Shown here one piece after another: positions 28,027-31,068 of a DNA stretch of 34,858 nt (within the stretch, counting starts at the first letter, position 1; every line of letters begins with the position of its first letter). The position numbers and the translations under genes are program-made. Below the pieces are notes generated by a model, which ran no database searches, had not been told where the DNA came from, and saw only the letters and a program-made list of their open reading frames with translations. The DNA lies in NCBI RefSeq assembly GCF_001408515.1, contig NZ_CYPR01000127.1, positions 1 to 34,858 of the forward strand, read 5' to 3'. The DNA comes from Jannaschia seosinensis (lineage in GTDB: Bacteria > Pseudomonadota > Alphaproteobacteria > Rhodobacterales > Rhodobacteraceae).

Positions 28027-28283
28027 GCCCACGGCAGTTTCCGGTTCCTTCCTGGCGATATTCGTATGCTGGCGGGCGAAGCGCGGGACATCGCCAGCGA
28101 CAGGGCCGGATTTTTGGGAAGCCACCCGGAAGCCGGAGCCACGCGCGCCCCGCGCAAACACCAATGAACGTTAGCCTTTTGACCGGGCCCCGCTGGTGGC
28201 CGCTGGGCCCCGTGTGGAGTCCAGCGCGGCATCCGGAGTCCGGAAGCCACCGGCATCCACCCGACCGAGGAACCTTGCCCACC

Positions 28284-29660
28284 ATGACGCTGAGCTTCGC
28301 CCCGGACGCGATCGAGACGTGGCCGCTGTCGCGCCTCCAGCCCTACGCGAAGAACGCGAAGGCGCACGGGCCGGACCAAGTCGCGAAGATTGCCGCCAGC
28401 ATGGCCGAGTTCGGCTGGACGGTGCCATGCCTCGTCGCCGAGGACGGCGAGCTGATCGCGGGGCACGGGCGCGTGCTGGCCGCGACGCAGCTCGGGCTGA
28501 CTGAGGCACCGGTCATCGTGCTCGGGCACCTGACCGAGGCGCAGCGCCGGGCCTACCGGATCGCGGACAACAAGCTGACGGAACTCGGCACCTGGGACGA
28601 GGCGCTGCTCTCGGCCGAACTGAACGACCTGCTGGCCGAAGACTTCAACCTGTCGCTGGTCGGGTTTTCCGATGGTGAACTCGACAAGCTGCTGGCCTAC
28701 GCCGCGGAAGACGACGGTGAAGAAGGTGGCGCCGGGGGCTCCGTGCCGCCGGTGACCATCCCCGAACCGCCGCGCAACCCGGCATCGCGGACGGGTGATC
28801 TCTGGATCCTAGGCGACCACCGGTTACTCTGCGCCGACAGCACCAGCGCGGCCGACGTGCGCCGCCTGATGAACGGCGAGCGGGCGATCCTATTCGCGAC
28901 CGACCCGCCGTATCTCGTGGACTACGACGGCTCGAACCACCCGACCCGCAACAAGGACTGGTCCGCGTCCTACGGCACGACCTGGGACGACAGTTCGCAG
29001 GGGGCCGAACTCTACGACGGCTTCATCTCGGCGGCCGTGGCCGAGGCCATCGCCGAGGACGCGGCCTGGTACTGCTGGCACGCCTCGCGCCGCCAGGCGA
29101 TGCTGGAGGCTTGCTGGGAGAAGGCGGGCGCCTTCGTGCACCAGCAAATCATCTGGGTAAAAGACCGCGGGGTCCTGACCCGGTCGCATTACCTCTGGAA
29201 GCACGAGCCCTGCTTCATGGGCTGGCGCCGCCCGAACCGCCCGCCGAAGGTGGCGGAGGAAACGCTGCCGTCGACCTGGGAGATGCCGTCCTTCGCGAAG
29301 GACGAGCGCCCCGACCACCCGACGCCGAAACCGCTCGATGCTTTCGGGATCCCCATGCGCCAGCACGTCGCCCGCGGCGGGCTCTGCTACGAGCCATTCT
29401 CGGGCTCCGGCTCGCAGATCATGGCGGGCGAGGCCAACGGCCGTCGCGTGTTCGCGATGGAGATCAGCCCGGCTTATGTCGATGTTGCCGTGGAACGCTG
29501 GCAGGCCGAGACCGGCCGCGACGCGATCCTCGACGGCGACGGTCGGACCTTCGCGCAGGTGAGGACCGAGCGGCTGGGCGACGATGCCGAGGCCCGGGCC
29601 GATACGCCGGACCCGGACGCCGCCCCAGAACCCGCGCGAAAGCGCAAGACCGCCGCGTGA
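28284..29660 (+). CDS. ParB-domain/DNA methyltransferase fusion (adenine-N6 or cytosine-N4 type)
   Basis: 458 residues. Residues 1-110 are a ParB/sulfiredoxin-like domain: LSRLQPYAKNAKAHGPDQVAKIAASM, LIAGHGRVLAATQLGL, RAYRIADNKLTE. From about 170 comes an amino-methyltransferase: GDHRLLCADS, the catalytic DPPY (about 206-209), HTQHPTPKP-like DHPTPKPLDAF, and the SAM-binding EPFSGSGSQIMAGEANGRRVFAMEI (about 370). It methylates phage DNA, probably to avoid host restriction; the target site cannot be read. I chose the ATG at 28284 because upstream codons run through the structured leader. The acidic/basic tail (about 430-458) is likely disordered. Confidence 0.87.
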   Translation: MTLSFAPDAIETWPLSRLQPYAKNAKAHGPDQVAKIAASMAEFGWTVPCLVAEDGELIAGHGRVLAATQLGLTEAPVIVLGHLTEAQRRAYRIADNKLTELGTWDEALLSAELNDLLAEDFNLSLVGFSDGELDKLLAYAAEDDGEEGGAGGSVPPVTIPEPPRNPASRTGDLWILGDHRLLCADSTSAADVRRLMNGERAILFATDPPYLVDYDGSNHPTRNKDWSASYGTTWDDSSQGAELYDGFISAAVAEAIAEDAAWYCWHASRRQAMLEACWEKAGAFVHQQIIWVKDRGVLTRSHYLWKHEPCFMGWRRPNRPPKVAEETLPSTWEMPSFAKDERPDHPTPKPLDAFGIPMRQHVARGGLCYEPFSGSGSQIMAGEANGRRVFAMEISPAYVDVAVERWQAETGRDAILDGDGRTFAQVRTERLGDDAEARADTPDPDAAPEPARKRKTAA

Positions 29661-29661
29661 C

Positions 29662-30843
29662 ATGCATGACCTGGCTTTACCTTCCTCCGGAGACGCTTCC
29701 GGGGCCGGAGACGCATGCCTATTCGGCCTCTCGCTCTGTTCCGGCGCGGGCGGGCTCGACCTCGGGCTCACCATCGCCATCCCAGGATATCGTGCTGTGG
29801 GCCATGTCGAATGGGAAACCTACGCCGCAGCCACTCTCGTGGCGCGGATGGAAGACACGTCCCTGGATCAGGCTGTTGTCTGGGACGACGTTGCCACCTT
29901 TGACGGCCGCCCGTGGCGCGGCGCGGTGGACATCGTCACTGCGGGCTATCCGTGCCAACCGTTTTCGGTCGCGGGCAAGCGCCGGGGCGCGGACGACCCG
30001 CGCCACCTCTGGCCGCATGTCGCCCGCATCATCGACGAGGTCGAGCCGCCTTTCGTCTTCCTCGAGAATGTCGCCCATCATCTCCGCCTCGGCTTCCCCG
30101 AAGTCGCCGCAGGACTGGTCGGCATGGGCTACCGCCTTGCGGCAGGCCTCTTCACGGCGGCGGAAGTCGGCGCGCCCCACAAGCGCGAGCGGCTCTTCAT
30201 CCTTGCCATCCGCGAGGGGGACGAGCTGGCCGACCCCTCGCGCCTGCTCCGGGACCCGGTCGAGTGGCGGGAACCGGACGGAGCTGCTGCGTTTGTGGCC
30301 CACGCCGAGGGCCAGTGCCAACGAGAACCGGCAAACGAAGCCGACGCCATCGCAGGCAGCGGGGCAGCACGGCATGAACCTTGCGACGACAGCAGCGCTG
30401 TGGCCGACGCCGCAGATCGACAGTTTCCGCAGTCGAGGTGGCGAGCGGAAGGACGAGAAAGGTGTGGACCGCATGGCGCGGGACTGGCCGACGCCGATGG
30501 CGAACGACGGCTGCAAGCCGAGTGCGGGCAACCGTCGGACGGCCGATCTGACCCATGCGGCTGGGATGTGGATGACGCCGACGGCGCGCGATCACAAGGA
30601 TGGCGCGACGACATTGGCGAACACGCCGGTGAACGGCCTGCTTGGCCGCCAGGTCCTGGTGACGCCGATGGCTGGGAGCGATACCTCCGAGCCGCGCCGG
30701 ACCTTGAACCCGCTGTTCGTCGAGGCGCTGATGGGCTGGCCCACCGGGTGGACCGGCTTCGCCTCTGTGGCAATGGCGTGGTCCCCTTGGTTGCGGCGCA
30801 TGCGCTGCGAGCTCTGGCGGCTGAACTGCTGGCCGATGGATGA
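29662..30843 (+). CDS. C5-cytosine DNA methyltransferase
   Basis: 393 residues from ATG 29662. Motif I LSLCSGAGGLDLGL, motif IV GYPCQPFS with the catalytic Cys (about 98), motif VI ENVAHH (about 135), motif VIII GAPHKRERLF (about 170) and, at the far end, motif X CGNGVVPLVAAHAL (about 367) are all in this frame. Between about residues 190 and 330 the sequence is an odd Ala/Asp/Gly/Arg-rich stretch with low third-position GC, while the next frame there is strongly biased (see the overlapping entry). The target-recognition part is therefore unusual. It probably protects phage DNA against host restriction. Confidence 0.82.
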   Translation: MHDLALPSSGDASGAGDACLFGLSLCSGAGGLDLGLTIAIPGYRAVGHVEWETYAAATLVARMEDTSLDQAVVWDDVATFDGRPWRGAVDIVTAGYPCQPFSVAGKRRGADDPRHLWPHVARIIDEVEPPFVFLENVAHHLRLGFPEVAAGLVGMGYRLAAGLFTAAEVGAPHKRERLFILAIREGDELADPSRLLRDPVEWREPDGAAAFVAHAEGQCQREPANEADAIAGSGAARHEPCDDSSAVADAADRQFPQSRWRAEGRERCGPHGAGLADADGERRLQAECGQPSDGRSDPCGWDVDDADGARSQGWRDDIGEHAGERPAWPPGPGDADGWERYLRAAPDLEPAVRRGADGLAHRVDRLRLCGNGVVPLVAAHALRALAAELLADG

Positions 30844-30856
30844 GGCGGCGACATGA
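30374..30856 (+). CDS. Overlapping open frame inside the C5 methyltransferase gene
   Basis: 160 codons from ATG 30374 in the +1 frame; the frame is open much further upstream, and a TTG at 30293 would add LWPTPRASANENRQ. It contains repeated WPTP/MTPTARD-type motifs (LWPTPQIDSF, DWPTPMANDG, MWMTPTARDH), then GLLGRQVLVTPMAG, LNPLFVEALMGWPTGWTG and WSPWLRRMRCELWRL. I remember these as a recurrent phage protein pattern. Third-position GC is far higher here than in the methyltransferase frame. Its stop overlaps the next gene's start (ATGA), typical of real coupled genes. The ribosome site is weak, so translation, frameshift fusion and relic coding all remain possible. Confidence 0.5.
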   Translation: MNLATTAALWPTPQIDSFRSRGGERKDEKGVDRMARDWPTPMANDGCKPSAGNRRTADLTHAAGMWMTPTARDHKDGATTLANTPVNGLLGRQVLVTPMAGSDTSEPRRTLNPLFVEALMGWPTGWTGFASVAMAWSPWLRRMRCELWRLNCWPMDEAAT

Positions 30857-31068
30857 AGCAATCCCGCCTCATGTCGCTGGTCGAGTCCGTCGCCAACGTC
30901 ATCGTGGGCTACGGCGTCGCCGTGGTCACGCAGATCCTGATCTTCCCGGTCTTCGGGCTGCACACGACGCTGGCGCAGAACCTGAAGATGGGCGCGGTGT
31001 TCACCGTGGTGAGCGTAGCGCGGTCCTATGTCCTGCGGCGGGTTTTCGAGCGGCTACGGCGTATGTGA
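30853..31068 (+). CDS. Small membrane protein (DUF7220-like)
   Basis: 71 residues with two hydrophobic segments: VANVIVGYGVAVVTQILIFPVF (about 13-34) and MGAVFTVVSVARSYVL (about 46-61), and a basic C terminus RRVFERLRRM. It matches what I recall as DUF7220, common beside phage methyltransferases. The start overlaps the stop of the overlapping frame at 30856 and lies 9 nt after the methyltransferase stop. The role is unknown. Confidence 0.75.
   Translation: MKQSRLMSLVESVANVIVGYGVAVVTQILIFPVFGLHTTLAQNLKMGAVFTVVSVARSYVLRRVFERLRRM

Follow-up and report, generated by a model that had tools for sequence, protein, structure and literature searches.

The multispecific C5-methyltransferases of Bacillus phages (SPbeta/phi3T type) are single chains read in one frame, with several recognition modules side by side, each a few dozen residues long. 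C5-methyltransferases divided between two polypeptides are also known, with M.AquI consisting of an alpha and a beta polypeptide and M.EcoHK31I (YGGCCR) having a large subunit with motifs I-VIII and X and a small subunit with motif IX alone (both described in PMC3404938), the latter enzyme being called naturally split in PMC3439449. Here we describe a locus in Jannaschia seosinensis, on the 34,858 nucleotides of contig NZ_CYPR01000127.1 that were analysed (the window), where one stretch of prophage DNA seems to be read in two frames, offset by one base, to give a pair of overlapping proteins of nearly 400 residues each; we call them alpha (frame 0) and beta (+1 frame). Probably the two frames together specify a two-subunit C5 DNA methyltransferase in which beta is the modular specificity subunit.

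M.EcoHK31I is close in design: alpha here has the set of motifs (I-VIII plus X) that marks the large subunit of that type and the motif IX is proposed to lie in beta. The second subunit is found in another frame of the first one's gene, and for M.EcoHK31I too a small subunit nested within the large one, in a different frame, was reportedly found by Lee and colleagues in 1995. The two systems differ in that beta overlaps alpha over almost its whole length, starting 4 nucleotides after it, and in that the predicted recognition domain of M.EcoHK31I is in its large subunit (PMC3404938), whereas here that part is apparently played by swappable cassettes of beta. The sequence of M.EcoHK31I was not found in the records inspected (2 of 15 plasmid and 4 of 68 E. 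coli records), the loci there lying among phage-like genes; three E. coli copies of the two-frame gene also lie among phage-like genes, with no annotated restriction enzyme in the stretch inspected. As in M.AquI, a C5-methyltransferase is divided between two polypeptides, but the small subunit of M.AquI has both IX and X and here X stays in alpha. The several adjacent modules of a few dozen residues, presumed here to recognise DNA, are shared with the SPbeta/phi3T-type enzymes, yet those are single-frame chains and here the modules are in a second polypeptide and in the other frame.

The same two-frame arrangement is, by annotation, present in Escherichia phages K1G and K1H and Paenibacillus phage Bloom, for which the public records annotate both frames ('Mte8-like' or a second methyltransferase coding sequence), with beta there starting inside alpha. 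An 'Mte8-like' gene is listed among genes divergent between phages in PMC5582158. A literature search, with most subscription journals outside its reach, gave no description of the two-frame arrangement in phages or of the cassettes. The nested frame has already been annotated in some phages; no paper was found that reports an array of cassettes in beta, an overlap this close to complete, or so wide a spread across phages.

The original prediction, made from the sequence alone, was that two frames of this stretch are both genuine, and the comparative evidence for such dual coding is strong, the window alone being weak evidence for the +1 frame. Both frames are open at full length among the open reading frames of the window, the +1 frame across the whole alpha gene, which holds no +1-frame stop compared with 16, 6 and 19 in three other genes of the window. 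GNGVVP is unbroken in frame 0 and LNPLFVEALMGWPTGWTG in the +1 frame, as had been claimed, and the proposed flip in codon bias is seen, third-position GC over 30255-30700 being 0.83 for +1 compared with 0.62 for frame 0; the core (29726-30219) has 0.80 for frame 0 and 0.76 for +1. The two open frames are not due to chance, because the +1 part is 91-100% identical across the 80 viral loci kept and the codon position that varies freely switches near 30220-30265 and switches back near 30745.

Comparing substitutions per frame across homologues, the check proposed with the original prediction, reveals that the selected frame switches along the gene. The tree holds 95 unique sequences (the window and 94 relatives; 4883 changes inferred by parsimony), and in this as in all counts given here the relatives are mutually related and not independent. 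Constraint is on frame 0 in the core, on +1 over approximately 30220-30700 and on frame 0 again around motif X. Expressed as changes per potential change for transitions and transversions respectively, frame-0-silent changes in the core reach 4.8 and 2.4 against 1.2 and 0.46 for those silent in +1, a relation that is reversed over 30220-30700 (1.2 and 0.36 against 5.8 and 3.8) and comes back at 30701-30843 (2.7 and 1.8 against 0.94 and 0.33). Column diversity in the window and its 80 viral relatives follows the same course, peaking at frame-0 third positions over most of 29725-30205, being low at all positions over 29785-29844, being highest over 30265-30685 at frame-0 first positions, which are the third positions of +1, and from 30745 being once more highest at frame-0 third positions. 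The onset of the second frame, which had been placed at 30255, has to be moved, since codon by codon the +1 constraint starts at 30221-30227, at the first WPTP, and the frame also has its own start far upstream, the ATG at 29666.

Both frames are almost always kept at full length. From 160 near loci inspected, 37 were dropped as the motif I pattern had no match and 123 were placed; one of these (L308) has no double start, leaving 122 measured for frame lengths. Alpha is 365-395 codons long in 119 of the 122 and beta 368-400 codons, also in 119, whilst in 79 of the 80 viral relatives alpha reaches its usual stop. Homologues with one frame riddled with stops, which the original prediction had named as evidence that would speak against it, showed up solely as early stops, in three alphas and three betas of the 122 and in one viral alpha (L068).

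In the core, frame-0-silent changes that create a +1 stop were inferred on the tree twice on 29 potential changes, compared with 27 on 36 in the upstream gene used as a control. Over 30220-30700, where a T at a +1 third base would be silent in +1 but stop frame 0, it is used 2 times in 2105, the figure elsewhere being 608 in 7169 (matching counts in the control gene, 259 of 4734 and 1149 of 15636). Leucine and valine codons of the core end in G before A in 0 of 123 cases and before other bases in 551 of 2878, the control gene having 792 of 879 and 2113 of 4023. Synonymous permutation of the frame-0 codons in the window alone leaves +1 open with P=0.066, which is weak, and the reciprocal permutation, with +1 codons shuffled and frame 0 watched, gives P=0.0004. 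For other loci the frame-0 permutation gave 0.059 (L004), 0.010 (L217), 0.0002 (L239) and 0.0425 (L302), and of 32 loci, with the window and these four counted apart and L165 and L162 missed by the pattern, 25 were validly tested, 20 of which have an open +1 frame at P<=0.002. The 25 include related loci (L166, L179, L184), and the test takes the longest +1 segment per gene, which favours openness.

What alpha encodes is a predicted catalytic core with no detectable recognition region. The motifs I, IV, VI and VIII are intact, as had been predicted, with a match to PF00145 (E=2.4e-34) that covers profile positions 4-167 of 324 only, and the alpha profile aligns strongly with M.HhaI over 12-175 and weakly at motif X. 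Against 19 canonical methyltransferases from related genomes alpha aligns at motifs I-VIII and X and jumps positions 101-226, its residues 364-389 falling on canonical 227-252, which is motif X (hhalign E=8.6e-5, probability 60%). No recognition region or motif IX was detected in the same chain, either by alignment to the 19 canonical enzymes or in the predicted fold. In that fold the core is confident (mostly around 90), residues 201-334 score below 50 and the helices of motif X are confident again, and the top Foldseek matches of the model in the PDB are M.HaeIII and M.HhaI over approximately 170 columns.

The motif content of beta appears to complement this. Its translation does have a database match, to phrog_1008, which is named DNA methyltransferase (E=1.5e-15), and also matches phrog_27243 of unknown function, three of its four PHROG matches being of that kind. 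When the beta profile is compared with canonical enzymes the best alignment is motif IX, ungapped, with beta 94-112 on 202-220 (P=0.013), and 0 of 300 column shuffles reach its score. It is suggestive, not proven, that the end of beta corresponds to motif IX, and where motif X was found among the matches listed the IX-like motif is mostly 62 nucleotides before it.

The remainder of the constrained part of beta is an array of units, mostly of 23-50 residues and most of them opening with WPTP, which are lost, replaced and re-ordered as whole units between relatives, the behaviour that would be expected of exchangeable recognition modules. The unit U3 of the window, which is flanked by two copies of TGGCCGACGCCG, is cleanly absent from five near relatives and is also missing from L446, of the same genus as the window. 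A second member of the genus, L445, has one different unit in place of U2-U4, its DNA being 88-92% identical to the window in the core, U1, U5 and the end and 79% in U6, and L450, of the same family, is without U1 and has U5 swapped for another unit. Clustering the 245 units of 84 divergent betas (83 loci plus the window) gave 108 clusters, and 26 unit types are each found in at least three betas and at more than one position, often with different neighbours. Within a type the likeness is greater in beta than in the alpha frame for 21 of the 22 comparable types, with one tie; pairs were compared ungapped and only when equally long, which left no pair for 4 of the 26 types and a single one for several of the 22. 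The cassettes may be what reads the DNA and sets the target.

Beta also has a conserved start. In TGACATGCATGACC the stop of the upstream gene is followed by the ATG of alpha and, four bases on, by that of beta, and the beta N-terminus MxWLY[LI]P is kept in 119 of 122 relatives (the 122 placed by a longer pattern). In 18 relatives it reads MTWLYIP, with a histidine of alpha replacing proline in those of them that were listed, a change that is conservative for beta and drastic for alpha. Close start pairs are also present in Acinetobacter phage ABMM1 (L168, 4 nucleotides), phage C75C1 (L169, 7 nucleotides) and Synechococcus phage Yong-M2-251 (L163, 7 nucleotides). In many other phages beta seems to have its start within alpha, a little ahead of motif IV. 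Of 89 divergent loci, 61 have inside alpha a start codon in +1 that is accompanied by a 4-nucleotide Shine-Dalgarno-like stretch, where synonymous shuffles predict 26.3; the other two frames have 3 and 0, and with ATG or GTG and a 5-nucleotide stretch the count is 30 against 9.0 expected, these 89 having been pre-selected for having beta (70 motif-bearing among the matches listed and 19 hand-picked). Many betas, such as those of L166, L198, L212 and L332, start with QLTLF, beneath the frame-0 motif IV. This resembles a bacterial sliding-clamp-binding motif; it may be a by-product of motif IV in frame 0, and a clamp motif is not claimed.

The arrangement is not confined to near relatives of the window. 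A set of 89 viral loci was made up of the best 80 from an alpha-profile scan of viral contigs and 9 alpha relatives from a scan with the alpha frame of L199; four have no recognisable motif I core, which leaves 85 divergent loci. Among the matches listed an LNPxWVEWLMGFP-like motif lies in the +1 frame in 70 of these, in frame 0 in none and in +2 in one (L396). Phages or prophages of Klebsiella, Komagataeibacter, Lacticaseibacillus, Paenibacillus, Escherichia and Synechococcus have the two-frame arrangement, as do loci of 40-55% G+C; a viral scan with the Synechococcus gene returned no relative. The beta profile is present in 9 of 60 genomes searched (that of the window and its relatives), and of ten loci read closely nine have the beta motif, eight of them, the window included, with alpha in the frame below. 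The ninth, L454 (genome G009, contig C5), is a fragment of beta, open over 152 codons, for which the frame below shows no alpha core; it is probably a decayed copy. In L196 (1458-2435), L205 (1449-2434) and L396 the halves of the gene are not in their usual frames, which are swapped or displaced partway along it; either sequencing error or decay could account for this. Among the 14 annotated loci inspected in which both frames exist, 11 records annotate one frame only and 3 both; in Acidovorax phage Alfacinha1 (L164, 2036-3169) the public methyltransferase coding sequence follows the beta frame, not the catalytic one.

Table 1. Coordinates, in the window, of the two overlapping frames and of the features within and beside them
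Feature	Positions	Strand	Description or basis
Alpha, frame 0 (393 amino acids)	29662..30843	+	predicted catalytic C5-methyltransferase subunit; motifs I-VIII and X; ATG 29662, TGA 30843
Beta, +1 frame (396 amino acids)	29666..30856	+	overlapping gene, proposed specificity subunit; ATG 29666, TGA 30856
Double start TGACATGCATG (upstream-gene TGA, alpha ATG 29662, beta ATG 29666)	29658..29668	+	ATGnATG(A/C)C in 122/123 near loci placed by motif I
Frame-0-selected region: motifs I (29734), IV GYPCQPF (29944), VI, VIII (30178)	29734..30205	+	substitution pattern
Beta cassette U1 (WPTPRACSG...)	30227..30295	+	
Alpha residues 201-334, predicted disordered, freely varying	30262..30663	+	predicted fold and substitution pattern
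Beta cassette U2 (WPTPRASAN...)	30296..30400	+	
Beta cassette U3 (WPTPQIDSF..., 84 nucleotides)	30401..30484	+	cleanly absent from L310, L311, L312, L316, L318 and L446
Beta cassette U4 (WPTPMAND...)	30485..30568	+	
Beta cassette U5 (WMTPTARDHKDG...)	30569..30655	+	
Beta cassette U6 (short, VTPMAGSD...)	30656..30703	+	
Motif-IX-like element of beta, LNPLFVEALMGWPTGWT	30704..30754	+	constraint and profile alignment
Alpha motif X (GNGVVP), frame 0	30769..30786	+	codon constraint, hhalign, predicted fold
ATGA, start of DUF7220 gene overlapping the beta stop	30853..30856	+	in 90/95 aligned sequences

A number of observations sit less comfortably with two functional subunits. No clear ribosome-binding site was apparent by eye ahead of the double ATG, and the tree does not clearly favour either frame as the selected one over 29666-29725, where the first 60 bases of beta lie. 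The early stops fall in the alphas of L253, L291, L319 and L068 and in the betas of L079, L285 and L314, a +1 stop at 30197 occurs in 1 of 75 sequences and the beta of L450 terminates inside the IX-like element. Changes that make a stop were inferred 10 times in frame 0 and 6 times in +1 over 29726-30700, once in +1 before 29726 and 10 times in +1 over 30701-30843, where the length of beta varies by a few codons, and the leucine and valine count of 0 in 123 is weak when taken alone because seven codon columns underlie it, two of which give 116 of the 123. None of the window's own units belongs to the 26 shared types, and 14 of the 85 divergent loci, among the matches listed, have no LNPxWVEWLMGFP-like motif by the pattern used. 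The motif IX match has an HHalign probability of 3.4%, one shuffle comes to 21.2 against its 21.6, and in 61 of 300 shuffles the best match starts in the same template stretch. The beta profile had only a chance-level match among PDB sequences, Pfam gave no match among 85 members of the beta family and NCBIfam none for three betas tested, and the beta fragment of L358 (a compact homologue, 75 sequences) folded alone was not confident, with a predicted local distance difference test score (pLDDT) of 66.9 and a predicted template modelling score (pTM) of 0.26.

Some of these results would be expected if beta were a separate overprinted phage protein unrelated to methylation, such as a DNA mimic or a host-takeover protein, given the missing matches in Pfam, NCBIfam and PDB sequences, the preponderance of unknown function among the PHROG matches and a fragment that has no confident fold of its own. 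We regard this as unlikely, as the end of beta resembles the single motif that alpha lacks, mostly at the same distance of 62 nucleotides before motif X, the constrained part of beta overlies the very region that is lacking in alpha, and the beta motif lies over alpha in all but the fragmentary L454 of the nine closely read loci that have it. An ordinary single-chain methyltransferase, with +1 open merely as a consequence of G+C-rich DNA and of the amino acid composition in frame 0, is scarcely credible. In the window alone +1 is indeed open in 6.6% of frame-0 shuffles, but over 30220-30700 it is frame 0 that changes freely, loci of 40-55% G+C are arranged in the same way and alpha has no detectable recognition region.

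The original prediction had offered either a separate nested gene or a programmed frameshift that gives two methyltransferase isoforms. It is the separate overlapping gene that has held up, with its conserved ATG at 29666 and full length in 119 of 122 relatives; the frameshift has not, and the products look like complementary subunits rather than two isoforms. A shift near 30220-30260 would fuse motifs I-VIII to the WPTP part, with the unshifted product as the second isoform, and is in keeping with the abrupt change of selected frame at 30215-30227, where there is no conserved start codon, and with the few sites on which +1 stop avoidance over the core depends. Such a fusion would have no need of the conserved beta start or of a +1 frame kept at full length, nor of the Shine-Dalgarno-preceded +1 starts that are in excess inside the alphas of divergent loci, and it would be without motif X, which stays in frame 0, so that a second shift back would be required; we consider it very unlikely. 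A programmed-frameshift gene is also expected to have no independent start and to use each frame on one side of the slip only, but beta has a start of its own and both frames stay open; slippery sites were not searched systematically.

If the locus is a methyltransferase of two subunits, alpha would bind the methyl donor and carry out the chemistry via motifs I-VIII and X, with beta supplying what alpha lacks, namely a recognition region of tandem WPTP cassettes and a closing motif-IX-like element. Together they plausibly hold the full set of methyltransferase parts, and both proteins would be made, bind each other and methylate DNA, with the cassettes setting the target. Translation probably enters both frames here via the adjacent ATGs just past the stop codon of the upstream gene, whilst elsewhere, in many phages, beta seems to begin inside alpha via a ribosome-binding site of its own. 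Each frame would be selected for its sequence where its own subunit needs it and elsewhere need only stay open. By exchanging whole cassettes a phage could alter its target sequences or gain further ones, with recombination editing the specificity in one frame and having only to keep a disordered linker open in the other. On balance we lean towards a widespread class in phages, in which exchangeable WPTP cassettes that read the target are carried in the second frame of the catalytic gene, as an HsdS-like subunit overprinted upon it.

The neighbouring genes may be mentioned briefly. Upstream, at 28164-29660, lies a gene in which a ParB-like N-terminal part is fused to an N6/N4 methyltransferase (phrog_498, E=4.6e-128); the dual-frame gene thus comes immediately after another gene for a DNA methyltransferase. 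Downstream, the predicted ATGA overlap with the next gene is present and is kept in 90 of 95 aligned sequences, the window included; this DUF7220 gene (71 amino acids, 30853-31068) begins within the beta stop codon, which makes translational coupling to beta possible. The host has a C5-methyltransferase on another contig (L409, genome G000, contig C154:7073-8068) that covers PF00145 nearly in full.

If two subunits are indeed encoded in this way, many phage and prophage genes annotated as 'DNA cytosine methyltransferase' would have been annotated with half of the enzyme missing, which would explain the degenerate-looking recognition region of the annotated protein. Decoding could then draw on a large collection of natural modules, and the locus would show with unusual clarity how a single enzyme can be shared out between the frames of two genes that overlap almost completely.
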